A stretch of DNA of 64,000 nucleotides from positions 18,446-82,445 of IMG/VR virus record IMGVR_UViG_3300048838_001252; one strand, written 5' to 3'. This document shows, piece by piece, positions 37,147 through 59,487 of this stretch (its first letter is position 1; each line of letters starts with the position of its first letter). The notes under the pieces are model-generated. The model made no database searches, was not told where the DNA came from, and saw nothing but the letters and a program-made list of their open reading frames with translations. This DNA comes from a virus. A program made the translations under genes and the position numbers.

Positions 37147-37152
37147 AAAGAC

Positions 37153-37180
37153 TTATACGTAAAGAGAAAAAAAATGTTAC
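37153..37180 (-). promoter_or_regulatory. ECF-like promoter GTAACAT-N14-CGTATAA
   Basis: Minus strand GTAACAT (37180-37174), 14 bases, CGTATAA (37159-37153). Its upstream edge merges with the T run of the terminator at 37185. The start codon at 37146 is only 6 bases beyond the -10 element, so the mRNA may be leaderless or the true start lies further in. Confidence 0.6.
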
Positions 37181-37184
37181 AAAA

Positions 37185-37208
37185 AAACCGGACTTTTTTG
37201 CCCGGTTT
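37185..37208 (-). terminator. terminator of the gene at 37217
   Basis: AAACCGG (37185-37191) pairs with CCGGTTT (37202-37208); on the minus strand it ends in a run of T that is shared with the -35 region of the next promoter. Confidence 0.7.
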
Positions 37209-42979: not shown

Positions 42980-42995
42980 TCTGAAATCATTTTTC

Positions 42996-43003
42996 ATAAA
43001 TAC
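42996..43003 (-). promoter_or_regulatory. late promoter motif (GTATTTAT)
   Basis: Minus strand reads GAAGTATTTATGAAAAATG; the motif contains the first in-frame ATG of the downstream frame, so the real start must be a later one. Confidence 0.6.
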
Positions 43004-46418: not shown

Positions 46419-46448
46419 AAATATTTTTCATTTTTTTTGAAAAAAGTT

Positions 46449-46478
46449 TGTATTTATGATTTTAATGCATATATTTGC
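46449..46478 (+). promoter_or_regulatory. housekeeping-type promoter of tRNA leader 1
   Basis: TTG near 46449-46451 and TATATTTG at 46471-46478, 19 bases apart, the optimum for Bacteroidota. It precedes the leader peptide ORF at 46521. Confidence 0.65.
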
Positions 46479-46520
46479 ATCGAAGTTTTTAGTTAAACAT
46501 AGTTGTTAGAGTTTTGAGTT

Positions 46521-46595
46521 ATGAAAAATTTAGTGTACATAGTGCCCCAACCGCAACAACATCCACAGGATGGTGAATGGGGAAAGTACGCTTAA
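46521..46595 (+). CDS. leader peptide 1 (Pro/Gln/His sensor), 24 residues
   Basis: Short ORF beginning MKNLVYIVPQPQQHPQ. It has eight consecutive Pro, Gln and His codons (46545-46568, CCC CAA CCG CAA CAA CAT CCA CAG) just before a segment, GAATGGGG at 46575-46582, that can pair with the 5' arm of the following terminator. The tRNA cluster downstream codes mainly for Pro, Gln and His tRNAs. Same MKNL start and layout as leader 2 at 51362. It is read as a regulatory leader peptide of the trp/his attenuator type. Confidence 0.75.
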   Translation: MKNLVYIVPQPQQHPQDGEWGKYA

Positions 46596-46654
46596 ATTTT
46601 TCGTGAAAGTTTAAGGTGAAGTAGACCCCATTCTGAAAAGAGTGGGGTTTTTTT
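46575..46654 (+). promoter_or_regulatory. attenuator 1: antiterminator/terminator switch
   Basis: Terminator: CCCCATTC (46626-46633) with GAGTGGGG (46640-46647) then seven T. Antiterminator: GAATGGGG (46575-46582, inside the leader ORF) is an exact complement of CCCCATTC, 8 perfect pairs versus 7 plus one G-U in the terminator. A ribosome at the stop codon (46593-46595) would cover the antiterminator arm; one stalled at the PQPQQHPQ codons would leave it free. Confidence 0.75.
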
Positions 46655-46682
46655 GTAACATTTTTTTCGTTCTTTCGTATAA
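46655..46682 (+). promoter_or_regulatory. ECF-like promoter GTAACAT-N14-CGTATAA
   Basis: GTAACAT at 46655-46661, 14 bases, CGTATAA at 46676-46682. It begins in the T run of the attenuator terminator and lies 21 bases before the HNH start. Confidence 0.65.
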
Positions 46683-46703
46683 TGAGTTTTGAAATATATA
46701 AAA

Positions 46704-47135
46704 ATGAATAAGATTTGTACAAAATGTAAGAGTTCTTTGAATATTGATGAATTTCCCATTGTTAATGGAAAAACAAAAAAACGTAGTTCAATGTGTTTGA
46801 CGTGTAAAAGAGAGTATGATAGGGAATATCATAAGAAATATGCCGAAAAACGTAATGAACTAAAAAGAAAAACACAATTAAAGAATAGACTTAGAAATAG
46901 AAAGTTTATTGTTGATTATTTAAAAGAAAATCCGTGCGTTGATTGCGGGGAAAATGATTTTATTGTGCTTGAATTTGACCACAAATACGATAAAAAATTT
47001 AACCTTGCTGACGCAGCCAGACGTGGGTATTCTTTGAAAACAATAAAAAAAGAAATTGAAAAGTGTGATGTTGTTTGTGCCAATTGTCATAGACGCAGAA
47101 CAGCAAAACAATTTAATTATTATATCAGGGTGTGA
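46704..47135 (+). CDS. HNH homing endonuclease ending inside a tRNA gene
   Basis: 143 residues from ATG 46704. N-terminal zinc motif (CTKCKSSLNIDEF ... CLTCK), a long basic helix, then the HNH domain: CVDCGENDFIVLEFDH with the catalytic His, and CDVVCANCHRRRTAKQF. The last three codons and stop (47124-47135) lie inside the acceptor stem of the tRNA-Pro that follows. It sits between attenuator 1 and the tRNA cluster, so readthrough transcripts would contain it. Confidence 0.85.
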   Translation: MNKICTKCKSSLNIDEFPIVNGKTKKRSSMCLTCKREYDREYHKKYAEKRNELKRKTQLKNRLRNRKFIVDYLKENPCVDCGENDFIVLEFDHKYDKKFNLADAARRGYSLKTIKKEIEKCDVVCANCHRRRTAKQFNYYIRV

Positions 47136-47219
47136 GCGAGAGGTTGAAGCTACTGGTCTTGGAAACCAGTGACGGCACAAAGGCGTTGTCGTCCGTGGGT
47201 TCGAACCCCACCACCCTGA
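47126..47219 (+). tRNA. tRNA-Pro(UGG) with long variable arm
   Basis: Acceptor CAGGGTG/CACCCTG (7 bp), D stem AGC/GCT, anticodon stem CTGGT/ACCAG with loop CTTGGAA (anticodon TGG), T arm GTGGG-TTCGAAC-CCCAC, A73. C1-G72, A73 and the UGG anticodon are proline identity features. Between anticodon and T stems it has 25 bases with a 7-bp stem (GACGGCA/TGTCGTC), an arm normally seen only in Ser, Leu and Tyr tRNAs. Confidence 0.75.
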
Positions 47220-47226
47220 CAAACCG

Positions 47227-47288
47227 CCCCAAACGGTATATAAAATTGTAATCAAGCAGTGCGCATTTAGTGCTAATTACATATTTGG
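47227..47288 (+). other. intergenic stem-loop between tRNAs
   Basis: CCCAAA near 47227 pairs with TTTGGG near 47284, enclosing TGTAAT/ATTACA with AGCA/TGCT. Probably a structured spacer of the tRNA transcript. Confidence 0.3.
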
Positions 47289-47295
47289 GACACAT

Positions 47296-47371
47296 GGTGA
47301 TTGTAGAGGAATTGGTAGACTCACCTGACTGTGAATCAGGAATCTTGCGGGTTCAAGTCCCGTCTTTCACC
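47296..47371 (+). tRNA. tRNA-His(GUG), acceptor stem with mismatches
   Basis: Anticodon stem CCTGA/TCAGG, loop CTGTGAA (anticodon GTG). A G at position -1 opposite C73 fits histidine identity. T arm GCGGG-TTCAAGT-CCCGT. The acceptor has two U-U mismatches (GTGATTG with CTTTCAC). Confidence 0.8.
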
Positions 47372-47400
47372 CAAATAGTGTTCATTGAAATATTGTTTTT

Positions 47401-47473
47401 CGGGATGTGGTGTAGTTGGTAACATGCGTGCTTTGGGAGCATGAGACCGTGGGTTCGAGTCCCGCCATCCCGA
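47401..47473 (+). tRNA. tRNA-Pro(UGG)
   Basis: Acceptor CGGGATG/CATCCCG, anticodon stem CGTGC/GCATG with loop TTTGGGA, T arm GTGGG-TTCGAGT-CCCGC, A73. C1-G72 as in bacterial tRNA-Pro. Short variable loop. Confidence 0.9.
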
Positions 47474-47475
47474 CT

Positions 47476-47549
47476 GTGTTAGTGGACTGTTGGTTTGTCC
47501 GTCAAGATTGTGACTCTTGTTGACGGGGGTTCGATTCCCCTCTAACACC
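47476..47549 (+). tRNA. tRNA-His(GUG), second copy
   Basis: Acceptor GTGTTAG/CTAACAC (7 perfect pairs), anticodon stem CAAGA/TCTTG with loop TTGTGAC, T arm GGGGG-TTCGATT-CCCCT, C73. Position -1 is T, not G, so the extra G would have to be added. Confidence 0.8.
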
Positions 47550-47565
47550 CAAAAATACATGATAT

Positions 47566-47638
47566 TGTCTCATGGTGTAATTGGCAACACGTTTGACTCT
47601 GAATCAAAAGAGTGGGGGTTCGAAACCCTCTGAGACAA
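47566..47638 (+). tRNA. tRNA-Gln(CUG)
   Basis: Acceptor TGTCTCA/TGAGACA, D stem GTGT/ACAC, anticodon stem TTTGA/TCAAA with loop CTCTGAA, T arm GGGGG-TTCGAAA-CCCTC, A73. Confidence 0.88.
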
Positions 47639-47643
47639 CAAAT

Positions 47644-47752
47644 GGTCTTCTGGTGGAATTGGAAGACATACCCTTTAAGGGGGCGAAGGTAATAACAGGT
47701 GTTCCAATAGAACAGAATAACTTCATTGCAGGTTCGAATCCTGTGAAGACCA
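47644..47752 (+). tRNA. tRNA-Leu(UAA) with oversized variable arm
   Basis: Acceptor GGTCTTC/GAAGACC, Leu-type D arm (GTGGAATTGG), anticodon loop TTTAAGG (anticodon TAA) on a weak stem, T arm GCAGG-TTCGAAT-CCTGT. The variable region is about 42 bases: GAAG/CTTC outside and a TGTTC/GAACA hairpin inside. Total 109 bases, unusually long. Confidence 0.65.
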
Positions 47753-47797
47753 CGAATGCCGAAATGCGGAGCAGAAATGCGCCAAATTACGGAATAT

Positions 47798-47878
47798 TAT
47801 CCTCTGGCAGAATGGTTATTGCATCGCCCTTTGAAGGCGACACCGAAAGGTTTGCAGGTTCGAGTCCTGCGGGGATAA
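47798..47878 (+). tRNA. tRNA-Gln(UUG) with hairpin in the variable loop
   Basis: Acceptor TATCCTC/GGGGATA (one G-U), D stem GCAG/TTGC, anticodon stem TCGCC/GGCGA with loop CTTTGAA, T arm GCAGG-TTCGAGT-CCTGC. Variable region 13 bases with ACC-GAAA-GGT, where class I tRNAs have 4-5. Confidence 0.75.
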
Positions 47879-47887
47879 CAAAAAATT

Positions 47888-47916
47888 TTGAAAATTCAAT
47901 TTTTTTTCTACCTTTG
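47888..47916 (+). promoter_or_regulatory. housekeeping-type promoter before tRNA-Gln
   Basis: TTG at 47888-47890 and TACCTTTG at 47909-47916, 18 bases apart; the tRNA starts at 47925. Confidence 0.6.
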
Positions 47917-47924
47917 TAAAAAAT

Positions 47925-47997
47925 TGACCTGTGGTGTAATTGGCAACACGTCAGATTTTGGTTCTGAAGTCTCTGAGTTCGAGTCTCAGCAGGTCAA
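47925..47997 (+). tRNA. tRNA-Gln(UUG)
   Basis: Acceptor TGACCTG/CAGGTCA, D stem GTGT/ACAC, anticodon stem TCAGA/TCTGA with loop TTTTGGT, T arm CTGAG-TTCGAGT-CTCAG. Own promoter immediately upstream. Confidence 0.9.
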
Positions 47998-48013
47998 CTA
48001 ATTTTCTTGGAAT

Positions 48014-48241
48014 ATGGATGAATTAGAAATATTACGAAAAGAAAACGAAGATTTAAAAGACAAACTAACCGATTTGACTTTCGAATTGAATTACAATAAA
48101 CAAACGGAGTTAATTGAATTCGTTCGTGAATTATATCAATCATTAGGCAATGTTGGTAAAAATCTTACAAAAAAAGAATTGGTTGAAAATCTGAGAAACT
48201 ATATTAGAGAGTTTACAAAAAATAATAAAATACAATTATGA
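48014..48241 (+). CDS. small coiled-coil protein
   Basis: 75 residues, predicted coiled coil (ILRKENEDLKDKLTDLTFEL) followed by a helical tail (KNLTKKELVENLRNYIREFT). Stop overlaps the next start (ATGA). Probably forms a unit with the receiver-domain gene. Function unknown. Confidence 0.6.
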   Translation: MDELEILRKENEDLKDKLTDLTFELNYNKQTELIEFVRELYQSLGNVGKNLTKKELVENLRNYIREFTKNNKIQL

Positions 48242-48672
48242 GTTACAATTTATTTCTTGACGATGTTCGTATGCCGAAGGATGCCTTCGAATACATGAAA
48301 CAACCAATTTATATTTCGGTTGAATGGATTGTTGTCAGGAATTATTATGCCTTCATCACACTAATTGAGAATAAGGGTGTCCCGGAAATCATATCGTTTG
48401 ACCACGACCTTGCCGATGAGCATTACGATTATCAAGAACAGTTTGGCAACAACGAAATCTACGATGTTATGACCGAAAAAACCGGATATCATTGTGCAAA
48501 GTGGCTTATTGATTACTGTATTGATAATGAAAAGGAACTTCCTGCCGAAATCATCATTCATTCAATGAATCCTGCAGGAAGTATGAACATCAAGTCATTA
48601 TTTAACACCTACATCAAAGTACATGGAAAAAAGCCAATTGATGTTTATGTATTACCTTCTTCCAGAAGATGA
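48238..48672 (+). CDS. cyclic-phosphate-processing receiver (cREC) domain protein
   Basis: Receiver-like fold with the phage/bacterial cREC layout: LFLDDVRMP (Asp8-Asp9), IISFDHDLADEH, TGYHCAKWLIDY, then IIHSMNPAGSMNI. This family has been proposed from comparative genomics to act on cyclic-phosphate ends of RNA or nucleotides. Placed within a tRNA island, a role in repairing cut tRNA ends is attractive but unproven. Its end overlaps a convergent gene by 21 bases. Confidence 0.7.
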   Translation: MSYNLFLDDVRMPKDAFEYMKQPIYISVEWIVVRNYYAFITLIENKGVPEIISFDHDLADEHYDYQEQFGNNEIYDVMTEKTGYHCAKWLIDYCIDNEKELPAEIIIHSMNPAGSMNIKSLFNTYIKVHGKKPIDVYVLPSSRR

Positions 48673-49518
48673 ACGGCTTGAACCAGTAGAACTTCCTGTA
48701 CTTCTATTTACTGTCCCACTATTTGAACTCCTTGATTGCGTTGGTTGTGAATAACTACGTGGCGTTGTATTTGTCGTTCTATTTGTCGGTGCAACTGACG
48801 GTGCTCTTGTCGGTGCAGTACGTGAATATGAGGGAGCAGTTGAGGGTGCTCTTGAGGGAGCAGTTCTCGTTGGTGTACTATAAGTACGTGATTGAGTACT
48901 TGTAGTTGTACGTGTTGTTGTACTTCGAGTTGTATTAGTATTATTATATGCTGGACGTGTGCTCATGCGTGGTGAACTATAGGTCGGCTTGTAAGTTCTC
49001 GCATCATCAGTGCGAGTTTCTTGTCTCTGTAGAGTAGATGTTCTCCTTTGTGGTTGATTATAAACAGACCTACTTGAAGTCACATATCTATTTCTATGAC
49101 CGTAATTATAGCTAACATATTGTCTATTATGACCCCAATACCCATAATTATAGCTAATATAGTATCTATTGTAGTGCCAATAGTTATATCTATAATAAGG
49201 AGTGTACCAGTAATCATAGAAGAAAGGGTCGTAATAACTATAATATGGCTGATAATAGTATGGGTATCGGTAGCCGAAAGTCAATAAAAAACGATAATTT
49301 GGCTCGTTATAATCTCTACAATAATTGTTAATTATCACTGGTTCAGATTTTTCCTTAACAACAATATAAACAGTATCTATTTTTGTTGTGTCAGGAGTAC
49401 CATATAATTCTTTGTCTTTCTCCAGACGATATTTCTCGTAATTTGAGAGTTCTCTTTCCTGTGCAATTAATGTAAATGCAAAGAGAATTGCGAGTAGTGT
49501 TAATAGTATCTTTTTCAT
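48652..49518 (-). CDS. secreted Tyr-rich then Ser/Thr/Arg-rich low-complexity protein
   Basis: Signal peptide MKKILLTLLAILFAFTLIAQ. After a short charged part comes a segment extremely rich in Tyr (about 75-140, YYYQPYYSYYDPFFYDYWY) and then a Ser/Thr/Arg/Pro-rich tail to the end. The composition resembles proteins of the Bacteroidota envelope. Phage genes with this composition are rare; it may coat the cell surface or be of host origin. The promoter motif upstream is a CTATTTAT variant. Confidence 0.6.
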   Translation of the reverse strand: MKKILLTLLAILFAFTLIAQERELSNYEKYRLEKDKELYGTPDTTKIDTVYIVVKEKSEPVIINNYCRDYNEPNYRFLLTFGYRYPYYYQPYYSYYDPFFYDYWYTPYYRYNYWHYNRYYISYNYGYWGHNRQYVSYNYGHRNRYVTSSRSVYNQPQRRTSTLQRQETRTDDARTYKPTYSSPRMSTRPAYNNTNTTRSTTTRTTTSTQSRTYSTPTRTAPSRAPSTAPSYSRTAPTRAPSVAPTNRTTNTTPRSYSQPTQSRSSNSGTVNRSTGSSTGSSRSSSGRR

Positions 49519-49565
49519 GACTTGTGTGTTTTTAATTAAAAGGCAATTAACGTGCCAGATTTTTT

Positions 49566-49573
49566 ATAAATAG
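49566..49573 (-). promoter_or_regulatory. late promoter motif, variant CTATTTAT
   Basis: Minus strand reads AATCTATTTATAAAAAATC before the secreted protein gene; back to back with the plus-strand motif at 49578. Confidence 0.4.
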
Positions 49574-49577
49574 ATTG

Positions 49578-49585
49578 GTATTTAT
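49578..49585 (+). promoter_or_regulatory. late promoter motif (GTATTTAT)
   Basis: Reads TTGGTATTTATGTAAAAAATA, 18 bases before the ATG at 49604. Confidence 0.6.
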
Positions 49586-49603
49586 GTAAAAAATATTCTT
49601 TCA

Positions 49604-50191
49604 ATGAAACAAAATGATAAAGAAAGGCTTTTTGAAGTCATGCATAAAGTTGCTGGACTACCATTAATCAATGAGAATATTGAAGAAAACAATGTTCCAA
49701 AATTAGGTTCTGTATATAAGGAAGGGGAAAGCTATCTTTGGAAAAACCAAAAAGTATTTGTCGATGAAAATAAAGAAACATTAATATTTGAACTTTTAAT
49801 TTCTGAGGTCATAAAATATGTTGCACCGGAATTAACACAGAAAATGAATATAGTTGGTAATCAAGTATTAAATTTACCATCATTTGACGACCAATTAACT
49901 CGAAATCAAGAATATTCGTCCATGTATCGACAATCGGGTGGTGATGAATTCTATAAAAAATACGATAAAATAAGTAAAACAATCTATAGAATCTTAAATT
50001 ATAACATCAATCTTACGGTGGTTATGGAAAAATCTCAAGCCAACCCCAAAGACTTTGTTCCTGTTGAACATATTTCAGGATTTAACAAAGCCATTGAAGA
50101 AATTAGTAAAGTTTTTAATGTTAATAAAATTGATTTAAGTATTGATATTGGAAAATTGTTACAGAAAAATTTTATAGAAATTGACAATTAA
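49604..50191 (+). CDS. internal-protein candidate with leader (RLFEVM...INE)
   Basis: 195 residues. Leader MKQNDKERLFEVMHKVAGLP then LINE, predicted cut after Glu24. The body is mostly helical (LLISEVIKYVAPELTQKMNI) with no recognised motif. It lies far from the 37-43 kb internal-protein cluster and on the other strand, yet has the same leader and the same promoter type, which argues for a family defined by the leader. Confidence 0.65.
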   Translation: MKQNDKERLFEVMHKVAGLPLINENIEENNVPKLGSVYKEGESYLWKNQKVFVDENKETLIFELLISEVIKYVAPELTQKMNIVGNQVLNLPSFDDQLTRNQEYSSMYRQSGGDEFYKKYDKISKTIYRILNYNINLTVVMEKSQANPKDFVPVEHISGFNKAIEEISKVFNVNKIDLSIDIGKLLQKNFIEIDN

Positions 50192-50202
50192 ATACATGAT
50201 TT

Positions 50203-51234
50203 ATGAAACAAAATGATAAACAAAGACTTTTTGAAGTCATGACAAGGCTCGATAAAACATTCAAACCCAAATTGAATGAAGAAACATTTCGTGATAAAAA
50301 TTTCAAGTTTCATGAAGGAGATGAAGTTACGTTTTTAAAAGACGGAAAACAAATTGATGGTATTATTTCAGATTATGATTATCATATGATGACTTGGAAA
50401 CCCACATATAATATTGATTATATGCAAGATGGTAGAAAAATGACCATAATTGGTGTTTCAGAGGATAACATTACACTAAAAAAATCCGGGTCAGAAGAAG
50501 AGTATCAAAAAAGATTTAATCAAAATAAAATGATACATAAAATGCAAGATGGTTTAGAAGAAGAAGCAAACAACAACCAATATTTTCCAATAACAACACC
50601 TGTTAGTAGTGAAGACGATAAATTATTTACCGGATTGGTTAATCAGGGAATTGATTCGCATCTTGAAGGATTCACCAAAAGTACATTTGATGTAAAAGAT
50701 AGTGGTTTGGGAAAACGTAGGGTTTTTAATTTCCACACATCGGAACTTCCAATATTATTAAGAAGACTTGAAGAACTTGGAACGGAAGAAGCACTCCAAT
50801 GGAAAGACGATATTGAAAATTATGATAATAATATCAATGAAATGAATATTGGAGAAATGAGAGATGATGAATTTAAATATTTTCATCAAAGCGAAGGAAC
50901 ACCAATTACTAAACATAATGTTCTTGATTGGTTAAGAGACCATCCAGAAGATTTTGATAAATATAAACATTTATTAAATCCAAAGAGTACTGATACCATG
51001 AGACGTTTATTAATTACGCATCCTCAATTCGTCAATAAATTAAATTGGTATTTTAATCGTTTGGGTAGTGTTGACCTTAATCATATGTTAAATAAACGAC
51101 CAGAATTAATTGATGCAGTCGAATTACCATTAGAACATTTAGGTAGGAGAGATTTATTCTCGATATTGAAAAATCATCCTGAATTAAATAATCACCCTAA
51201 ACTACAACAAATAAAACAAAAATACGTAATATAA
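50203..51234 (+). CDS. internal-protein candidate with leader (RLFEVM...LNE)
   Basis: 343 residues. Leader MKQNDKQRLFEVMTRLDKTF plus KPKLNE, predicted cut after Glu26; nearly identical to that of the gene at 41326. The body contains a beta segment (VTFLKDGKQIDGIISDYDYH, possibly an SH3-like fold), and a helical C-terminal half with repeated motifs around HPEDFDKY, HPQFVNKL, RPELIDAV and HPELNNHP, resembling short helical repeats. Eleven bases after the preceding gene. Confidence 0.65.
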   Translation: MKQNDKQRLFEVMTRLDKTFKPKLNEETFRDKNFKFHEGDEVTFLKDGKQIDGIISDYDYHMMTWKPTYNIDYMQDGRKMTIIGVSEDNITLKKSGSEEEYQKRFNQNKMIHKMQDGLEEEANNNQYFPITTPVSSEDDKLFTGLVNQGIDSHLEGFTKSTFDVKDSGLGKRRVFNFHTSELPILLRRLEELGTEEALQWKDDIENYDNNINEMNIGEMRDDEFKYFHQSEGTPITKHNVLDWLRDHPEDFDKYKHLLNPKSTDTMRRLLITHPQFVNKLNWYFNRLGSVDLNHMLNKRPELIDAVELPLEHLGRRDLFSILKNHPELNNHPKLQQIKQKYVI

Positions 51235-51291
51235 AAACACGTTAATTATCAATCATTTATAAAAAAAATAAAAAATAATTTAAAAAAAGTT

Positions 51292-51320
51292 TGGAATTGT
51301 TGTAACATTTTATACCTTTG
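51292..51320 (+). promoter_or_regulatory. housekeeping-type promoter of tRNA leader 2
   Basis: TTG at 51292-51294 and TACCTTTG at 51313-51320, 18 bases apart. The leader ORF starts at 51362. Confidence 0.65.
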
Positions 51321-51361
51321 TAACGTATTTAGATAAAAACGATTTAATTATAAAAAAGAAA

Positions 51362-51457
51362 ATGAAAAATTTACTCGACATATTAATGGTAGCGGTAGCC
51401 TTGGAAGCAGACCTATTATGGGTGGCTGATGAGGATATGCTATGCGGAGTCGGGTAA
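51362..51457 (+). CDS. leader peptide 2 (Leu/Asp/Val/Ala/Glu/Trp/Gly sensor), 31 residues
   Basis: Short ORF starting MKNLLDILMVAVALEADLLW. Of residues 4-31, 24 are Leu (7), Asp (4), Val (4), Ala (4), Glu (2), Gly (2) or Trp (1); the others are Met, Ile and Cys. These seven amino acids are the ones whose tRNAs are encoded in the cluster after it (51562-54813). Its last codons GGA GTC GGG (51446-51454) form the antiterminator arm. Read as a multi-amino-acid attenuator leader peptide. Confidence 0.75.
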   Translation: MKNLLDILMVAVALEADLLWVADEDMLCGVG

Positions 51458-51526
51458 TAAAAGTTTTTTTAATACCTCCTTTCTTTTAAAAAGAAAACCC
51501 GACTCCCCGAAAAAGTCGGGTTTTTT
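51446..51526 (+). promoter_or_regulatory. attenuator 2: antiterminator/terminator switch
   Basis: Terminator: AAAACCCGACT (51494-51504) with AGTCGGGTTTT (51514-51524). Antiterminator: GGAGTCGGG (51446-51454, last codons of the leader ORF) is a perfect 9-base complement of CCCGACTCC (51498-51506). Ribosomes that reach the stop at 51455-51457 would mask it and let the terminator form. Confidence 0.75.
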
Positions 51527-51561
51527 GTTTTGGGGGTGGTTCTTTGACATGTTGGAAATTT

Positions 51562-51636
51562 GGTGCTGTAGTTCAGCTTGGTTAGAATGCCTGCCTGTCA
51601 CGCAGGAGGTCGTGGGTTCGAGTCCCATCAGCACCG
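51562..51636 (+). tRNA. tRNA-Asp(GUC)
   Basis: Acceptor GGTGCTG/CAGCACC, anticodon stem CCTGC/GCAGG with loop CTGTCAC, T arm GTGGG-TTCGAGT-CCCAT, G73 as in tRNA-Asp. First tRNA after attenuator 2. Confidence 0.92.
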
Positions 51637-51642
51637 CAAATG

Positions 51643-51706
51643 GTCTTCTCTGGAAGTGCACAACTATTCGTGATATCAAATAGTCTCGAATCCAGAGGTG
51701 ACCGCC
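51643..51706 (+). other. tRNA remnant
   Basis: GGTCTTCTCTGG at the start and CCAGAGGTGACC at the end resemble the acceptor region of a tRNA, with a CTATT...AATAG stem between; there is no proper T loop. Low-confidence degenerate tRNA. Confidence 0.25.
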
Positions 51707-51711
51707 ACATT

Positions 51712-51789
51712 GGTCTTATGTGCTTGACTGGCGTGCAGGATTTGGGTTGTCGCCCCACAAAAACGAGGGTTCGAATCCCTCTAAGACCG
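51712..51789 (+). tRNA. tRNA-like gene, anticodon probably GUC (Asp), distorted
   Basis: Acceptor GGTCTTA/TAAGACC and T arm GAGGG-TTCGAAT-CCCTC are perfect, G73. The best anticodon arm is TTGGG/CCCAC with loop TTGTCGC (anticodon GTC). The D region is about four bases longer than normal. A second Asp tRNA or a decaying copy. Confidence 0.5.
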
Positions 51790-51793
51790 CAAT

Positions 51794-51923
51794 GCTTTGC
51801 TGTCGGCTCATACTTAGAGGGTATGGGGTACGAAGATACACGGGTTAGTGTAATAAACACGTCTGCTTAATAACCAGATAACTGTGACATGAAAAAGTCA
51901 TCATCCGTAACAAGTGGCAAAGT
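51794..51923 (+). ncRNA. structured RNA with tRNA-like arms (N0)
   Basis: GCTTTGCT (51794-51801) pairs with GGCAAAGT (51916-51923). Inside lie GTGT/ACAC, TCTG/CAGA and TGAC/GTCA hairpins, a cloverleaf-like arrangement, but no TTCGAAT loop. Possibly a tRNA-derived non-tRNA element. Confidence 0.3.
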
Positions 51924-51930
51924 ATTTCAA

Positions 51931-52002
51931 CGATTCCGTAGTGTAATGGTTAACATCCCGCACTGTCTATGCGGGGAAGGGGTTCGAGTCCCACGGGGTC
52001 GG
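51931..52002 (+). tRNA. tRNA-Asp(GUC), weak T stem
   Basis: Acceptor CGATTCC/GGGGTCG (two G-U), D stem GTGT/ACAT, anticodon stem CCGCA/TGCGG with loop CTGTCTA, T loop TTCGAGT on a stem with only three good pairs, G73. Confidence 0.65.
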
Positions 52003-52016
52003 CAAAATTTAAAACA

Positions 52017-52127
52017 ATGAAAAAGAAAGAAACATCTGGAATCTCCAGAAAAAAGGTTGAGTTTAAATTAATTTCAAAGGAAGAACTTCAGAAAAATAGA
52101 AGTAATGCCTACGAATATTTGGTTTAA
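52017..52127 (+). CDS. 36-residue peptide flanked by palindromes
   Basis: ORF starting MKKKETSGISRKKVEFKLIS, highly basic and acidic, between tRNA genes. Two near-identical palindromes, TCTGGAATCTCCAGA at 52029-52043 (inside the ORF) and TCTGGAATTTCCAGA at 52129-52143 (just after the stop), frame it. Could be a small regulator binding these sites, or a third leader-type ORF; no function known. Confidence 0.45.
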   Translation: MKKKETSGISRKKVEFKLISKEELQKNRSNAYEYLV

Positions 52128-52144
52128 GTCTGGAATTTCCAGAC
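52028..52144. repeat. pair of 15-bp palindromes
   Basis: TCTGGAATCTCCAGA and TCTGGAATTTCCAGA, 100 bp apart, each with perfect 6-bp half-sites (8-bp in the second). Typical of operator sites or RNA hairpins. Confidence 0.6.
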
Positions 52145-52149
52145 AATCT

Positions 52150-52252
52150 ACCGTTTTAGCAGTAAAAAGTGTAATATATGATACTTTTAGTTAACATTTT
52201 AGCCAAAAGTACCGTTTTAACAGTAAAAAGTGCAATATATGATACTTTTGCA
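52150..52252. repeat. two imperfect direct repeats of about 40 bp
   Basis: TACCGTTTTAGCAGTAAAAA at 52150 and TACCGTTTTAACAGTAAAAA at about 52210, each followed by GTGyAATATATGATACTTTT. Each contains TTTTA/TAAAA and AAAAGT/ACTTTT hairpins; the second ends in TACTTTTG, a possible -7 element. Confidence 0.6.
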
Positions 52253-52413
52253 TGCAAATACATATAATTGCATAAAAACAATTAAATTCATATGCTTTTG
52301 CATATAAAAGATAGTGATGACCGATGTAAAAAACTGCACGAGAAACAGACACGAGTGGGTTAAGAGATGTTTTAATACTCACAAGGGTTGCCAGTACCCA
52401 AGGTCATCCAAAT

Positions 52414-52488
52414 GCTGCGGTTGGCAAATTAGGTTAAGCCACCAGACCTTCAATCTGGTCATTGCGGGTTCGATTCCCGTCCGCAGTA
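52414..52488 (+). tRNA. tRNA-Glu(UUC) with C33
   Basis: Acceptor GCTGCGG/CCGCAGT (one G-U), D stem GGC/GCC, anticodon stem CCAGA/TCTGG (extended to 6 bp), loop CCTTCAA giving TTC with C instead of the nearly universal U at position 33. T arm GCGGG-TTCGATT-CCCGT, A73. Confidence 0.7.
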
Positions 52489-52514
52489 CCCTTGGTCGTT
52501 TTCTGTACTTTCTC

Positions 52515-52522
52515 GTATTTAT
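52515..52522 (+). promoter_or_regulatory. late promoter motif (GTATTTAT)
   Basis: Reads CTCGTATTTATGGGAAAG, 15 bases before the GIY-YIG gene at 52538. Confidence 0.55.
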
Positions 52523-52537
52523 GGGAAAGTATAGATT

Positions 52538-53200
52538 ATGGCAAGAAAAGAAAAGAAGTATCATTTAATCTACAAGACCACGAATATCTTAACTGGTCGA
52601 TATTATTATGGAATGCATAGCACCGATAATCTCGATGATGGTTATTTGGGGTCAGGTAAGAGATTAAAATACTCAATTAATAAATATGGCAAGGATGTTC
52701 ATAAACGAGAAATTGTTGAATTTTGTTCAAATCGTGAATTATTGAATAACAAAGAAAAAGAAGTTATCACCCTCAATGAAATAGGAAAAAAAGATTGTAT
52801 GAATTTAATTGTTGGTGGTCAAGGTGGTGATGGTGGATTAAGCAATGTATCACCAGAAAAAATTCAAAACATTCGCAAAGGTGCATCAGATTTCATGAAC
52901 AGACTATGGAAAGACCCAAAATTTATTGAAGGTCATAAACAAAGGACAATAGAGATTTTAAAGAAAAGACATCAAAGGGGTGAGGTTAAATATGATACGT
53001 TCACAGGAAAAAAACATAGTGAGGAAACTAAGATAAAAATGAGTAATCTTAAAAGAGGAAAAGGTGTTGGTAATAATAATTCACAATTTGGTACTTGTTG
53101 GATAACAAAAAACGGTAATGATAAAAAAATAAAAAAAGAATACCTTCAAGAATATCTTTCTGAAGGTTGGATTAAGGGTAGATATGTTCGGGTCTTCTAA
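52538..53200 (+). CDS. GIY-YIG homing endonuclease ending inside a tRNA gene
   Basis: 220 residues. GIY-YIG-type nuclease core: HLIYKTTNILTGRYYYGMHS, GYLGSGKRLKYSINKYG and KREIVEF with Glu in NKEKEVI. NUMOD3-type element FTGKKHSEETKIKMSNLKRG near 160, and a C-terminal winged-helix-like part. The last five codons and stop lie within the acceptor and D arm of tRNA-Glu (53186-53257), the same overlap as the HNH gene with tRNA-Pro at 47126. Confidence 0.88.
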   Translation: MARKEKKYHLIYKTTNILTGRYYYGMHSTDNLDDGYLGSGKRLKYSINKYGKDVHKREIVEFCSNRELLNNKEKEVITLNEIGKKDCMNLIVGGQGGDGGLSNVSPEKIQNIRKGASDFMNRLWKDPKFIEGHKQRTIEILKKRHQRGEVKYDTFTGKKHSEETKIKMSNLKRGKGVGNNNSQFGTCWITKNGNDKKIKKEYLQEYLSEGWIKGRYVRVF

Positions 53201-53257
53201 CGGTCAGGAATCTGGGTTTTCATCCCAGCAATCGGGGTTCGATTCCCCGTCCGAATA
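53186..53257 (+). tRNA. tRNA-Glu(UUC)
   Basis: Acceptor GTTCGGG/TCCGAAT (G-U pairs at both ends), D stem TTCT/AGGA, anticodon stem CTGGG/CCCAG with loop TTTTCAT, T arm CGGGG-TTCGATT-CCCCG, A73. Its first 15 bases are also the end of the GIY-YIG ORF. Confidence 0.85.
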
Positions 53258-53267
53258 CAAATCAATC

Positions 53268-53341
53268 GCTTCCTTAACTCAGTCCGGGAGAGTGTTTGCT
53301 CGACATGCAAAAAGTCGTAGGTTCAAATCCTACAGGAAGTA
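53268..53341 (+). tRNA. tRNA-Val(GAC) with C33
   Basis: Acceptor GCTTCCT/AGGAAGT, anticodon stem TTTGC/GCAAA, loop TCGACAT (GAC with C33), T arm GTAGG-TTCAAAT-CCTAC, A73. Close relative of the tRNA-Val at 53537, so it looks like a diverged duplicate. Confidence 0.65.
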
Positions 53342-53350
53342 CAAAAAATG

Positions 53351-53460
53351 CCGTAAACTTGGGATAACATTCTCTTAAAAGGAAACCGGAGTAGCGAATA
53401 GCTTAAAGCGAAGGGGTTTCATAGTGAGCGGTAACAGCGAAAAGTTAGCCACTTAGTAGT
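53351..53460 (+). other. structured spacer between tRNA genes
   Basis: GAAACC (about 53382) pairs with GGTTTC (about 53415), and AGTG with nested GGTAAC pairs with GTTAGCCACT (53430-53455). No tRNA hallmarks. Confidence 0.3.
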
Positions 53461-53462
53461 TG

Positions 53463-53535
53463 TTGGGTGATAGTGTAGTGGTAGCACGCCCGTGTGAAAA
53501 CGGGTAGGTCGGGTTCGAGTCCCAACACCCCTTAA
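53463..53535 (+). tRNA. degenerate tRNA-like gene, anticodon uncertain
   Basis: D arm GTG/CAC and T loop TTCGAGT with CGGG/CCC are present, and CCCG/CGGG forms the anticodon stem, but the loop is 6 or 8 bases (around TGTGAAAA) and the acceptor pairs only partly (GGGTG with CACCC). GTG or GAA are possible anticodons. It may be inactive. Confidence 0.35.
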
Positions 53536-53536
53536 T

Positions 53537-53611
53537 GCTTCCTTAACTCAGTTGGTTCAGAGTGCCACCCTTACAAGGTGGAAGTCGTAGGTTCGACCCC
53601 TACAGGAAGCA
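53537..53611 (+). tRNA. tRNA-Val(UAC)
   Basis: Acceptor GCTTCCT/AGGAAGC, anticodon stem CCACC/GGTGG with loop CTTACAA, T arm GTAGG-TTCGACC-CCTAC, A73. Confidence 0.9.
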
Positions 53612-53621
53612 CAACTAATTG

Positions 53622-53696
53622 CAATGGTTCTTAACGGGTTCGATTCCCGCTCGTCAGAAGTAATTACCTGATGGGATGGTGTGAAATGGTACGACA
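53622..53696 (+). other. two tRNA halves in inverted order (possible permuted tRNA)
   Basis: A 3' tRNA half (CGGG-TTCGATT-CCCG then CTCGTCAG) comes first and is followed after 10 bases by a 5' half (CTGATGGG then a GTGT/ACAC D arm). CTCGTCAG and CTGATGGG pair over 8 positions with two G-U pairs. No convincing anticodon arm can be assembled. Confidence 0.3.
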
Positions 53697-53701
53697 CAAA
53701 T

Positions 53702-53776
53702 AGTCCCTTAGTTTAGTTGGTAAAAACGTCTGGCTTACATCCAGAAGATGCACTGGTTCGAATCCAGTAGGGACTA
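53702..53776 (+). tRNA. tRNA-Val(UAC), second
   Basis: Acceptor AGTCCCT/AGGGACT, anticodon stem TCTGG/CCAGA with loop CTTACAT, T arm ACTGG-TTCGAAT-CCAGT, A73. Body differs from the Val tRNA at 53537. Confidence 0.88.
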
Positions 53777-53788
53777 CAAAATAAATTT

Positions 53789-53870
53789 CTCGCAGTGTTG
53801 TAACTGGTAGCCAAGCTGGTCTAAGAAGCCAGTGTCGAAAGACGTGTGGGTTCGACTCCCACCTGCGAGA
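53789..53870 (+). tRNA. tRNA-Leu(AAG)
   Basis: Acceptor CTCGCAG/CTGCGAG, anticodon stem CTGGT/GCCAG with loop CTAAGAA (anticodon AAG), class II variable arm with GTC-GAAA-GAC, T arm GTGGG-TTCGACT-CCCAC. AAG is an unusual anticodon in bacteria and would need A34 editing to inosine to read CUC well. Confidence 0.8.
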
Positions 53871-53876
53871 CGATAT

Positions 53877-53950
53877 GCGGACGTGCCGGAACTGGCATAC
53901 GGGTTAGTCTTAGAAACTAAATTTTGTGGGTTCGATTCCCACCGTCCGTA
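53877..53950 (+). tRNA. tRNA-Leu(UAG) with short variable loop
   Basis: Acceptor GCGGACG/CGTCCGT, Leu-like D loop (GGAACTGGCATAC), anticodon stem TTAGT/ACTAA with loop CTTAGAA, T arm GTGGG-TTCGATT-CCCAC. The variable loop is only 5 bases (ATTTT), whereas bacterial tRNA-Leu normally has a long arm. Confidence 0.75.
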
Positions 53951-53954
53951 CAAA

Positions 53955-54034
53955 GATGTTAATAAATAGTGTTGAAGGGCAGTAAGAGTGGTAATACGAC
54001 AAGTCCTAAGAACCACCACCAGTTTATTAACATT
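53955..54034 (+). ncRNA. structured RNA closed by 12-bp stem (N1)
   Basis: ATGTTAATAAA (53956-53966) pairs perfectly with TTTATTAACAT (54023-54033), plus a flanking G-U. Inside, GTGGT (53989) can pair with ACCAC (54012). About 80 nt, similar in size to a tRNA but lacking its arms. Confidence 0.4.
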
Positions 54035-54039
54035 GAGAG

Positions 54040-54182
54040 AGGCGCATGACAGACTCAAGCAGGGGTGACTGCGTAGCCTGTACCGAGTGTTCTTAAAAGT
54101 GAAGGAGTAATACCTTCAAACACATTATTTCGAACTGCAAAGGGGTAATGGTTGAACTACTAATAAGGTACTACTCTCATTT
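54040..54182 (+). other. spacer with small hairpins
   Basis: TGAAGG/CCTTCA around 54101-54118 and GCAG...CTGC near 54059-54074 form hairpins. No tRNA or ORF seen. Confidence 0.3.
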
Positions 54183-54256
54183 GGGGTCGTGGCAAAATTG
54201 GCTAATGCACCTGCCTTGCACGCAGGGGATTGAGGGTTCGAGTCCCTTCGACTCCA
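54183..54256 (+). tRNA. tRNA-Ala(UGC)
   Basis: Acceptor GGGGTCG/CGACTCC (G3-U70, the alanine identity pair), anticodon stem CCTGC/GCAGG with loop CTTGCAC, T arm GAGGG-TTCGAGT-CCCTT, A73. Confidence 0.92.
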
Positions 54257-54257
54257 C

Positions 54258-54340
54258 AAAAATGAAAGTGAATGGCACACTACCATTTAATGATTACCGA
54301 CAAGTTGAAAGAGTCTTGGGTTATAACAGCTTTCATTTTT
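54258..54340 (+). ncRNA. structured RNA closed by 11-bp stem (N2)
   Basis: AAAAATGAAAG (54258-54268) pairs perfectly with CTTTCATTTTT (54330-54340). Inside, AATGG/CCATT (54271-54287) and CAAG/CTTG (54301-54318) give a three-way junction. It fills the space between two tRNA-Ala genes. Confidence 0.45.
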
Positions 54341-54345
54341 ACCAC

Positions 54346-54418
54346 GGGGCAGTGGTGACAAAGGCTAACACGATAGGTTTGCAACCTTTAGATACGGGTT
54401 CGATTCCCGTCTGCTCCA
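54346..54418 (+). tRNA. tRNA-Ala(UGC), second
   Basis: Acceptor GGGGCAG/CTGCTCC with G3-U70, anticodon loop TTTGCAA on a stem with one U-U mismatch, T arm ACGGG-TTCGATT-CCCGT, A73. Confidence 0.85.
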
Positions 54419-54420
54419 CA

Positions 54421-54494
54421 AAACTTGACAGACCCCCAAACTGTACATCGAAGTGGCGGTTTTAATACCCATGAAATGGCATGGAGTCAAGTTC
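54421..54494 (+). ncRNA. structured RNA closed by 8-bp stem (N3)
   Basis: AACTTGAC (54422-54429) pairs with GTCAAGTT (54486-54493). Inside, AAACTG/CGGTTT (54438-54462) and CCATG/CATGG (54469-54484) again make a three-way junction, as in N2. Confidence 0.45.
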
Positions 54495-54498
54495 TTTT

Positions 54499-54571
54499 GC
54501 CCCGTTGACGTAACTGGCAACCGTATCAGGCTTAAAATCTGAGTTTCTCAGTTCGAATCTGAGGCGGGGTA
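54499..54571 (+). tRNA. tRNA-Leu(UAA) with short variable loop
   Basis: Acceptor GCCCCGT/GCGGGGT, D stem ACG/CGT, anticodon stem TCAGG/TCTGA with loop CTTAAAA, T arm CTCAG-TTCGAAT-CTGAG, A73. Variable loop only 4 bases. Confidence 0.78.
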
Positions 54572-54574
54572 CAA

Positions 54575-54660
54575 ATTACCGGAAATTGCCGGATAGTAAT
54601 TAAGTACATCTGATTATCAATTAATTATGATTTTATTTTTTGCCGGATATTACCGGATAT
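54575..54660 (+). repeat. CCGGA repeats
   Basis: Four copies of (A/G)CCGGA(A/T)A: two near 54579-54594 and two near 54640-54658. Each half could fold on its CCGG cores. Function unknown; the intervening sequence is AT-rich. Confidence 0.45.
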
Positions 54661-54662
54661 AC

Positions 54663-54735
54663 ACGTCCGTAGTTCAGTTGGTAGAATAGTGGTCTCCAAA
54701 ACCGAAGGTCGGGAGTTCGAGTCTCTCCGGGCGTG
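54663..54735 (+). tRNA. tRNA-Trp(CCA)
   Basis: Acceptor ACGTCCG/CGGGCGT, anticodon stem TGGT/ACCG with loop CTCCAAA, T arm GGGAG-TTCGAGT-CTCTC, G73 as in tRNA-Trp. Confidence 0.85.
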
Positions 54736-54741
54736 CAATAT

Positions 54742-54813
54742 GTGTCTGTCATCTAATGGCTAAGATATCGGCTTCCAACCCCGATGATGAGGGTTCGACT
54801 CCTTCCAGACATG
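54742..54813 (+). tRNA. tRNA-Gly(UCC) with enlarged anticodon loop
   Basis: Acceptor GTGTCTG/CAGACAT, D stem ATCT/AGAT, anticodon stem ATCGG/CCGAT enclosing nine bases, CTTCCAACC, two more than normal; TCC is the most natural anticodon. T arm GAGGG-TTCGACT-CCTTC, G73. Confidence 0.65.
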
Positions 54814-54824
54814 CAAATTCGAAA

Positions 54825-57195: not shown

Positions 57196-57559
57196 GGGGC
57201 AGACTGGTTTTGACTTCATGTCAGACTTGGTAATGTAAGCAAGTCGTAGTTGAATCGGACTACGTTAAAAAGGTTCAAAACAACAAATGCAGAGGATATA
57301 ATGTCCATTCCAACGTCTCTTACAAGAGGCAAAAGCGTTTTTGCGAGAAATACTGAACTCGCATTTGCTGCGTAGGAACAATAAAACAGTAAAAACAACG
57401 GGTAGTCATCCTGAGTTGATTTGTTCTCAAGGATGTGGCGTTGAAAAATAGAAAACTGAAAAAATAAAATATTTTGCTGGTTTAGAAAAACCGGATAAAC
57501 TTGTAGAAAACTTATTAATCACATGAAACACAGGGGTTCGACTCCCCTCTGCTCCACCA
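57196..57559 (+). ncRNA. ssrA: tmRNA with tag ARNTELAFAA
   Basis: Transfer-messenger RNA that rescues stalled ribosomes. The tRNA-like ends are clear: 5' GGGGCAGA with CTGGTTTTGAC, 3' GGGG-TTCGACT-CCCC and CTGCTCC with encoded ACCA; the acceptor has the G3-U70 pair for alanine charging. The tag frame resumes at GCG (57343) and reads ARNTELAFAA before TAG at 57373, preceded by a CTCTT/AAGAG hairpin. The 364-base length is normal for tmRNA. Confidence 0.92.
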
Positions 57560-58350: not shown

Positions 58351-58436
58351 GGCGGGATGTCGTAATTGGTAGCCGAGACAGACTTAAAATCTGTTGAACC
58401 TTTGTGTTCGTGTGGGTTCGAGTCCCATTCCCGCTA
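58351..58436 (+). tRNA. tRNA-Leu(UAA), class II
   Basis: Acceptor GGCGGGA/TCCCGCT, D stem TCG/CGA, anticodon stem ACAGA/TCTGT with loop CTTAAAA, variable arm with GAAC/GTTC, T arm GTGGG-TTCGAGT-CCCAT, A73. Confidence 0.88.
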
Positions 58437-58440
58437 CTAA

Positions 58441-58537
58441 ACATTTGGTGGCATTGCTACAAATTAACAAAGGCGGGTTTGGTTTCCCAACATCGGTGAA
58501 AATCGGTAACATGAGTTCGAGTCTCACCACCGAATGT
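58441..58537 (+). other. tRNA-like element with extended acceptor
   Basis: ACATTTGGTGG (58441-58451) pairs with CCACCGAATGT (58527-58537) over 11 positions, and TGAG-TTCGAGT-CTCA is a good T arm. The anticodon region (GGG-TTTGGTTT-CCC) is irregular and the variable region holds two ATCGGT copies. Could be a decayed Pro or Thr tRNA. Confidence 0.4.
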
Positions 58538-58554
58538 TTTTAAATAAAAATGAT

Positions 58555-58821
58555 ATGAAAGAAATTAAAAAAGCAATACGGAATGAAATTCGTAAGGATT
58601 GTCGTGAGGAAGCTAAGAAAATTCTTGAACTTGGTGACGATAAAGACCGTGGAGATTTTATGAAATATCATGAAGAAGATAAGGGAAACATTTGTTGTCT
58701 TGTTCTGGACTTTGCAAAGAAAAAATTAATTGAAGCCGGAAAATGGGAGTTTAATGAGAATGATTGTTTTAACGACCAGTTTAGATTTTTGGAAGATGAA
58801 GACAGTAAAGAAACTGAATAA
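58555..58821 (+). CDS. small charged helical protein
   Basis: 88 residues from ATG 58555 (MKEIKKAIRNEIRKDCREEA); the longer frame from 58534 would start inside the tRNA-like element. Contains CC and acidic C terminus. Function unknown. Confidence 0.5.
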   Translation: MKEIKKAIRNEIRKDCREEAKKILELGDDKDRGDFMKYHEEDKGNICCLVLDFAKKKLIEAGKWEFNENDCFNDQFRFLEDEDSKETE

Positions 58822-58918
58822 TGACAATTGTTGTGGGAAACCACTAAAGGTTGTTGACCCCAGAAGGAAAAAAGATTTGGGGATTAAAAAAGTAATTAAG
58901 AAGAGAACGCCCGGATGA
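58796..58918 (+). CDS. 40-residue basic protein overlapping tRNA-Leu
   Basis: ORF in another frame from ATG 58796, overlapping the preceding gene by 26 bases: MKTVKKLNNDNCCGKPLKVV and a Lys/Arg-rich end. Its stop (58916-58918) lies in the acceptor stem of the next tRNA. Moderate support only. Confidence 0.35.
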   Translation: MKTVKKLNNDNCCGKPLKVVDPRRKKDLGIKKVIKKRTPG

Positions 58919-58982
58919 CGGAACTGGCATACGTATTAGATTCAAAACCTAAGTTTTGTGGGTTCGACTCCCACTCTGGGCA
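58909..58982 (+). tRNA. tRNA-Leu(CAA) with short variable loop
   Basis: Acceptor GCCCGGA/TCTGGGC, D stem ACG/CGT with Leu-like loop, anticodon stem TTAG/CTAA with loop TTCAAAA, T arm GTGGG-TTCGACT-CCCAC, A73. Variable loop about 5 bases, like the Leu tRNAs at 53877 and 54499. Confidence 0.75.
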
Positions 58983-58989
58983 CAAATTA

Positions 58990-58997
58990 GTATTTAT
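58990..58997 (+). promoter_or_regulatory. late promoter motif (GTATTTAT)
   Basis: Reads TTAGTATTTATATAAAACTG, upstream of the gene at 59070. Confidence 0.55.
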
Positions 58998-59036
58998 ATA
59001 AAACTGCATTTTATCATGAAAGAAAAATTTAAAGTC

Positions 59037-59065
59037 CTGTAACGCAACTCAAATGGTGCGTTCAG
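59037..59065 (+). promoter_or_regulatory. stem-loop at the start of the gene at 59070
   Basis: CCTG-AACGCA pairs with TGCGTT-CAGG (10 bp, one bulged T), and the AGGA before the ATG is partly inside the stem. It could block translation until unfolded or bound by a protein. Confidence 0.45.
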
Positions 59066-59069
59066 GAAA

Positions 59070-59372
59070 ATGGGAAACAAAAACATTGTAGATAATACCA
59101 CGAATCGTGGTGAATTCAACCGTGCTTACAAAAGATATCTTGAAGGCAAGGGAAAAATCAGTTGTACTTATTGCCGTTATCATCGTAACGAAAACGGTAA
59201 AGGTAGAGGATATTATGGTGGATATGAAAGAACCAACGGTCATGTCAAAATAATTTATCCAAACTGGAAACTTGTTTCAAGTAACCGTAAGCAATGGATG
59301 AAAAAATCGATGAAAGTCGTTGAAAAAACTGTGCGCTGGTCAGGCGCAAAATACATCGACATTACTTGGTAA
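59070..59372 (+). CDS. small basic protein with Cys pair
   Basis: 100 residues, starting MGNKNIVDNTTNRGEFNRAY. CTYCRYHRNENGKGRGYYGG supplies a CxxC and His close to a Gly/Arg-rich stretch; the C terminus is basic with many Trp and Lys. Reminiscent of nucleic-acid-binding proteins, but no family named. Preceded by a strong stem-loop and followed by tRNA-Met. Confidence 0.6.
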   Translation: MGNKNIVDNTTNRGEFNRAYKRYLEGKGKISCTYCRYHRNENGKGRGYYGGYERTNGHVKIIYPNWKLVSSNRKQWMKKSMKVVEKTVRWSGAKYIDITW

Positions 59373-59382
59373 TGTCGATTAT

Positions 59383-59455
59383 GGCGGGATAGCTTAGTTG
59401 GTAAAGCACTTGAGTCATAACCAAGAGACCGAGGGTTCGAGTCCCTCTCCCGCTA
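59383..59455 (+). tRNA. tRNA-Met(CAU)
   Basis: Acceptor GGCGGGA/TCCCGCT, D stem GCTT/AAGC, anticodon stem CTTG/CAAG with loop GTCATAA, T arm GAGGG-TTCGAGT-CCCTC, A73. Initiator features are absent; an Ile(CAU) with modified C34 cannot be excluded. Confidence 0.85.
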
Positions 59456-59463
59456 CAAATAAA

Positions 59464-59487
59464 AAACCCATCGAATTCGATGGGTTT
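59464..59487. terminator. bidirectional terminator closing the tRNA island
   Basis: AAACCCATCGA and TCGATGGGTTT, a perfect palindrome around an AT core, between tRNA-Met (+) and the converging membrane gene (-). Confidence 0.75.

Follow-up and report, generated by a model that had tools for sequence, protein, structure and literature searches.

Why phages carry large sets of transfer RNA (tRNA) genes is an old question, and a tRNA island governed by a shortage-triggered switch would mean that the sets answer shortage. A candidate for such an island lies in the 64,000-nucleotide stretch of DNA analysed here (the window), taken from an 82 kb contig of the IMG/VR virus collection on which distant protein matches identify T4-like terminase and major capsid proteins. 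A preliminary description of the window had divided the island into two tRNA operons, each with its own amino-acid-sensing leader. Both operons were located: ARAGORN detects 23 tRNA genes within positions 46449-54814, and both operons, A and B, begin with a promoter of Bacteroidota type, followed by a short leader open reading frame (ORF) and an intrinsic terminator (Table 1). Comparison with related phages indicates that each tRNA operon is very probably controlled by ribosome-mediated transcription attenuation.

Leader peptides match the tRNAs encoded downstream

The amino-acid composition of both leaders follows the content of their operons. Pro, His and Gln account for 8 of the 23 residues of leader A, all 8 in one unbroken run, against a frequency of 0.091 in the proteome (binomial p 7e-4). 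In leader B, 24 of the 30 residues are D, E, V, A, L, W or M (p 7e-7). No equally good match to the tRNA set of leader A or B was found in about 8,190 stretches of the same length from the phage's own proteins.

Relatives were collected by a terminase search, which gave 60 loci in viral contigs; the tRNA regions were fetched, and more contigs were recovered via leader patterns. The leader-pattern searches used A, C or D, and contigs so recovered are not independent of those patterns; the match between leaders and tRNAs is equally present in contigs, among them G001-G026, that came from the terminase search alone. The evidence throughout is sequence comparison among related metagenomic contigs. 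Leader cassettes were identified by a detector that takes the promoter, ORF length, terminator and a nearby tRNA as inputs and never uses amino-acid composition. In the first set it found 86 cassettes with 70 distinct leader peptides before tRNA operons; two further jumbo phages contain more of them. The promoter element of the window precedes nearly all leaders in relatives.

The leaders form four main classes. Class A leaders are PQPQQHPQ-like and lie upstream of Pro, His and Gln tRNAs. Class B leaders are rich in D, E, V, A, L, W and M and precede the matching tRNAs. Class C leaders are TYYYGKKSYKK-like and are found upstream of Lys and Tyr tRNAs. Class D leaders, rich in S, T, I, N, R, G, C and F, precede Cys, Asn, Ile, Ser, Phe, Gly, Thr and Arg tRNAs. 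In the fullest cases the four classes together account for all 20 amino acids. All four leaders were mapped in G010, G034, G052, G054 and G055; other records, such as G046, are partial contigs. Nearly every tRNA gene in this group of giant phages lies downstream of such a leader cassette.

The preliminary description had proposed comparing tRNA content with leader composition across related phages. In that comparison the amino acid of every downstream isotype is present in 67 of the 70 distinct leaders. The leaders contain 98.7% of operon isotypes, compared to 58.5% and 63.8% in two other reading frames; 44.5% of leader residues match the operon, compared to 14.6% and 17.8% in the other frames and 10.9% for leaders of other classes. 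Two of the three mismatching leaders (L082 and L084) are artefacts of the longest-ORF rule, the correct leaders being present in another frame of the same cassettes, and the third arises from a single Leu tRNA within a class D operon. The fetched clade DNA, 1.21 Mb from loci selected for their tRNA genes, contains 99 cassettes consisting of promoter, ORF and terminator. Of these, 94 precede tRNA genes, and one of the remaining five is a class D leader truncated by the locus end. A matching leader is absent before any tRNA cluster examined in four T4-like jumbo or large outgroup phages, of which three carry 28 to 60 tRNA genes.

The same short ORFs could be functional small proteins, with the hairpins serving as ordinary terminators of upstream genes and the amino-acid match being coincidental. 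The peptides are conserved within each class, as this explanation would have it. However, the match is repeated in four to five unrelated peptide classes and fails in other frames, nearly all such cassettes precede tRNA genes, and a leader predicted from the attenuation model was found in one of the relatives (see below). Both coincidence and a small-protein function were dismissed on this comparative evidence as extremely improbable.

A split operon and matching at the level of Leu codon families

The predicted leader comes from G019. The D leader of this phage has no Arg and only one Thr, and a separate Thr-Arg-Arg-Ile tRNA cluster is located 3 kb upstream. If the attenuation model is right, this cluster is expected to own a T/R/I leader. 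The predicted leader, a fifth beside A to D, was found: MKNIITITQITRIRGTKTSSNGFIV, followed by a terminator.

A further case concerns Leu codons. In G018 and G019, the Leu(UAA) and Leu(CAA) genes belong to operon B, and the Leu codons of leader B are only TTA and TTG. In G019, the Leu(UAG) and Leu(AAG) genes belong to operon D, and leader D has CTA, CTG and CTT plus two TTA. This split of the Leu codon families in G018 and G019 is probably one evolutionary event. Overall, leader codons cover 229 of 249 isoacceptors, with 200 expected from codon usage.

Terminator and antiterminator

The terminators found between the leader ORF and the first gene have a median free energy (dG) of -16.1 kcal/mol, a terminator being required by the detector. 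The 3' end of the leader ORF (region 2) is complementary to the 5' arm of the terminator (region 3), with p<0.05 versus shuffles in 91% of cases, and the end of region 2 is mostly 2 to 27 nucleotides before the end of the stop codon. When arm 4 is omitted, 73 of 76 folds show arm 3 paired to the leader, versus 38.7 ± 3.2 for shuffled leaders. In all four classes the arms of one leader fit each other better than arms exchanged among leaders of that class, and compensatory changes occur on all three strands at single positions. One position in class C is paired 2:3 in 13 of 13 leaders and 3:4 only about half the time; hence the 2:3 pairing seems to be selected in its own right. The residues at the peptide ends that do not match (EWG in A, GVG in B) coincide with the codons of region 2. 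This predicted layout is the anatomy of a classical attenuator: a cognate leader ORF, a 3:4 terminator and a mutually exclusive 2:3 antiterminator.

The peptide run PQPQQHPQ is unchanged across 15 class A leaders, and its codons vary at third positions only, which points to translation of the leader. The leader ORFs end with TAA in 67 cases and TGA in 9, and none of the 76 ends with TAG. A tRNA with a CUA anticodon, called Pyl by ARAGORN, is present in G010, G019, G026, G034, G048, G050, G054 and G055, usually after operon D; it is possibly an amber suppressor.

An RNA leader sensing uncharged tRNA directly, in the manner of a T-box, without a translating ribosome, would in principle likewise be a tRNA-responsive attenuator. 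Against this possibility, no covariance model match to a T-box was found in Rfam, the third-position pattern of the class A control codons indicates translation, and the end of the ORF contains region 2, which a ribosome could cover there. We therefore consider direct sensing highly unlikely. Known leaders of amino-acid operons also gave no Rfam match above the gathering score, the best leader-type hit being Thr_leader with 23.1 bits versus a cut-off of 55. Bacterial genomes were searched for the codon pattern PQPQQHP; the matches listed were scattered over unrelated organisms and judged to be chance.

Proposed mechanism

The proposed attenuation would proceed as follows. The host RNA polymerase would initiate at the host-type promoter, and a ribosome would translate the leader ORF, whose codons demand the tRNA species encoded by that operon. 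With all these tRNAs available, the ribosome would reach the stop codon and cover region 2, so that the 3:4 terminator forms and transcription stops before the tRNA genes. With any matching aminoacyl-tRNA in short supply, the ribosome would stall upstream on its codon, and region 2 would pair with region 3. The 2:3 pairing would block the terminator, and the whole matching set of tRNAs would be transcribed. The tRNA products would end the shortage, giving negative feedback and supply on demand. The sets sensed would be P, H and Q by leader A; D, E, V, A, L, W and M by leader B; K and Y by leader C; and C, N, I, S, F, G, T and R by leader D, jointly 20 amino acids.

The anatomy, the composition match, the complementarity and covariation of the antiterminator and the restriction to tRNA operons are present in the DNA itself; leader translation, stalling, readthrough and the cause of tRNA depletion during infection are inferred. 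The earlier suggestion that tRNA families are grouped by the leader that senses them, with supply on demand, is strongly supported, as leader composition tracks tRNA content over four to five leader classes and the antiterminator covaries.

Several observations weigh against this model or limit its reach. Some leaders include amino acids for which the operon yielded no tRNA, such as His in L081, L084 and L113. A Leu tRNA outside the class is present in two operons, L157 and L158, and in L158 Leu is also missing from the leader. No leader cassette was found at the Tyr, Tyr, Met, Leu tRNA cluster of G018 (L087:8379-8912). Some operons, operon A of the window among them, carry an ORF between the terminator and the first tRNA, and in such operons a further promoter may be located between the two. 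Matching of single isoacceptors within a class was rejected because the presence or absence of an isoacceptor does not predict its leader codon; the claim is thus held at the level of amino acids, plus the Leu codon-family split. Finally, leaders of one class are homologous and their counts are not independent, so that strong independent cases are few: the differences between classes, G018/G019 and G026.

What the leaders may sense

A high demand by the phage or a general control of charging would yield identical anatomy, and the leaders may sense ordinary amino-acid starvation or the high demand of late infection, with supply tuned to the translation load and defence uninvolved. This explanation predicts the same anatomy, and the leaders use the phage-rare Leu codons CTA and CTC, not the common CTT. 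Rare Leu codons are expected as sensitive control codons, as in the leu leader of Escherichia coli. On the other hand, extra tRNA would not restore charging under pure amino-acid starvation, so that the control logic would be less sensible in that case. We consider starvation or demand a realistic trigger, if a little less than an even prospect. Degraded host tRNA may be another source of the shortage.

The preliminary description had suggested a different trigger, tRNA depletion, for instance by host anticodon nucleases. In this specific version of the attenuation explanation, nucleases of the PrrC, PARIS AriB or retron-Eco7 type would destroy tRNAs, the leaders would sense damage, and the operons would re-supply the lost tRNAs. 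Phage tRNAs are known to defeat tRNA-cleaving defences: phage tRNA-Tyr overcomes retron-Eco7 and tRNA-Lys overcomes PrrC (PMC11555353), tRNA-Lys, tRNA-Thr and tRNA-Asn overcome PARIS (PMC12409363), and a further report is PMC10264068. Class C covers exactly Lys and Tyr, which are targets of known defence nucleases. The two neighbouring genes that had been placed in the same theme are real. Each of the 20 clade records searched has the cREC domain gene next to the island, close to the A/B boundary, and the encoded protein may act on the ends of cleaved RNA. The transfer-messenger RNA (tmRNA) gene is located in the distal part of the B unit, as in several relatives. Against a damage sensor, no link was found here between the leaders and any defence, coverage of all 20 amino acids is equally consistent with general supply control, and a search of 13 records found no RtcB ligase. 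We hold tRNA damage as the trigger only tentatively, as something that may well not be so.

More broadly, we speculate about a genome-wide viral network of tRNA supply, in which a few codon-reading leaders monitor all 20 amino acids (in one lineage down to the codon family) and re-supply the depleted set, and whose origin would be a counter-defence, with sensor and effector, against the anticodon nucleases of the host. As a whole, this scenario seems rather unlikely.

Relation to known systems

The trp, his, leu, phe, thr and ilvGMEDA attenuators share with the phage leaders a promoter, a short ORF rich in control codons and mutually exclusive 2:3 and 3:4 pairings, with region 2 at the ORF end or just after it. 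In contrast to these attenuators, the phage leaders are viral and would control tRNAs rather than biosynthetic enzymes; each would respond to 2 to 8 amino acids, and four to five leaders cover all 20. The breadth sensed and the tRNAs as controlled genes are distinctive, as previously suggested, but the accompanying statement that classical attenuators sense one amino acid was overstated. The ilvGMEDA and thrABC attenuators sense several. T-box riboswitches resemble the phage cassettes in controlling transcription in response to tRNA charging, often by antitermination, but their RNA itself binds uncharged tRNA and their targets are synthetase and amino-acid genes, whereas the phage cassettes have a predicted translated leader instead.

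The tRNA island of T5, which acts against retron-Eco7, PrrC and PARIS, is similar in providing a large tRNA set that replaces host tRNA. It differs in that a strong promoter drives tRNA-Tyr expression in the T5-like case studied (PMC11555353). The searched papers on anti-defence phage tRNA islands gave no instance of control by a leader peptide. Huge Bacteroidetes phages (bS21 phages, PMC9723584; huge phage clades, PMC7162821) resemble the phages studied here in their genomes of ~300-330 kb, a large terminase and capsid block, tRNA genes and predicted Bacteroidetes hosts. A text search of the two papers turned up neither leader peptides nor attenuation of tRNA genes.

We found no earlier report of leader-peptide attenuation of tRNA genes in the open-access literature. 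What appears new, within a known class of mechanism, is the application to tRNA genes, the breadth and the organisation over 20 amino acids. If the model is true, these would be, with respect to the searched literature, the first attenuator of tRNA genes and the first set of leaders spanning 20 amino acids, and the leader sets would reveal which tRNAs are expected to be lost together. The debate between codon compensation and defence evasion would become directly testable with reporters, and the leaders would be ready-made sensors for individual tRNA sets.

Other features of the locus

Table 1. Features of the tRNA island; positions are those of the window.
Feature	Position	Strand	Remarks
Promoter A	46448..46477	+	TTGTATTTATGATTTTAATGCATATATTTG; Bacteroidota primary-sigma type, match to consensus TTG-N-TAnnTTTG
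Leader ORF A	46521..46595	+	MKNLVYIVPQPQQHPQDGEWGKYA; control codons PQPQQHPQ
Region 2 of leader A (antiterminator arm)	46575..46582	+	GAATGGGG; within ORF; complement of 46626-46633
Terminator A (3:4 hairpin)	46623..46654	+	dG -18.1 kcal/mol; terminator at 46623-46650; followed by T run
Region 3 of terminator A	46626-46633	+	CCCCATTC
ORF separating terminator A from first tRNA	46704..47135	+	HNH-like Cys/His motif by eye; no Pfam match
tRNA operon A	47126..47998	+	Pro(UGG), His, Pro(UGG), His, Gln(CUG), Gln(UUG), Gln(UUG)
cREC domain protein (cyclic-phosphate processing receiver)	48238..48672	+	PF20274, E 3.4e-22; 240 nucleotides past last tRNA of operon A
Promoter B	51291..51320	+	TTGGAATTGTTGTAACATTTTATACCTTTG; match to TTG-N-TAnnTTTG
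Leader ORF B	51362..51457	+	MKNLLDILMVAVALEADLLWVADEDMLCGVG, includes …LDILMVAVALEADLLWVADEDML…
Region 2 of leader B (antiterminator arm)	51446..51455	+	GGAGTCGGGT; extends into stop codon; complement of 51497-51506
Terminator B	51497..51526	+	region 3 ACCCGACTCC, 51497-51506; region 4 AGTCGGGT, 51514-51521; then T run
tRNA operon B	51562..54814	+	Asp x3, Glu x2, Val(GAC), odd tRNA, Val(UAC) x2, Leu(AAG), Leu(UAG), Ala x2, Leu(UAA), Trp x2
GIY-YIG homing-endonuclease-like gene	52538..53200	+	between Glu tRNA genes of operon B; weak Pfam PF19835 / NUMOD3 matches, below cut-off
tmRNA	57196..57559	+	distal, co-directional with operon B; same arrangement in relatives
Distal tRNAs Leu(UAA), Leu(CAA), Met(CAU)	58351..59456	+	ARAGORN; terminator-like hairpin 59464-59487

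The distal Leu, Leu and Met tRNAs are probably the end of the B unit. The odd tRNA of operon B is a tRNA-like gene at 53462-53534 with an abnormal anticodon loop and, according to ARAGORN, an anticodon of two bases. Read on the opposite strand, its anticodon stem-loop CCCGTGTGAAAACGGG becomes CCCGTTTTCACACGGG, a stem-loop of the Glu type that carries the anticodon UUC. In operon A, positions 47644-47752 gave a weak tRNA match in Rfam only, with a long insert and no ARAGORN call, possibly a decayed Leu-type tRNA. A repeated element including GTAACATTTTTTTCGTTCTTTCGTATAATGAG is found just after terminator A (46636-46699) and at 37136-37199 on the - strand, the two copies being 78% identical; the element may act as a phage promoter, and transcription of operon A might start from it as well.

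Several phage proteins of the window, encoded at 41326-41760, 41789-42997, 49604-50191, 50203-51234 and 61365-62279, share an N-terminal stretch like MKQNDKQRLFEVMTRLDKTFKPKLNE that ends with L-x-E or I-x-E. This stretch resembles the T4 capsid-targeting sequences cut by the prohead protease, which suggests by analogy that these proteins are a family of internal head proteins.

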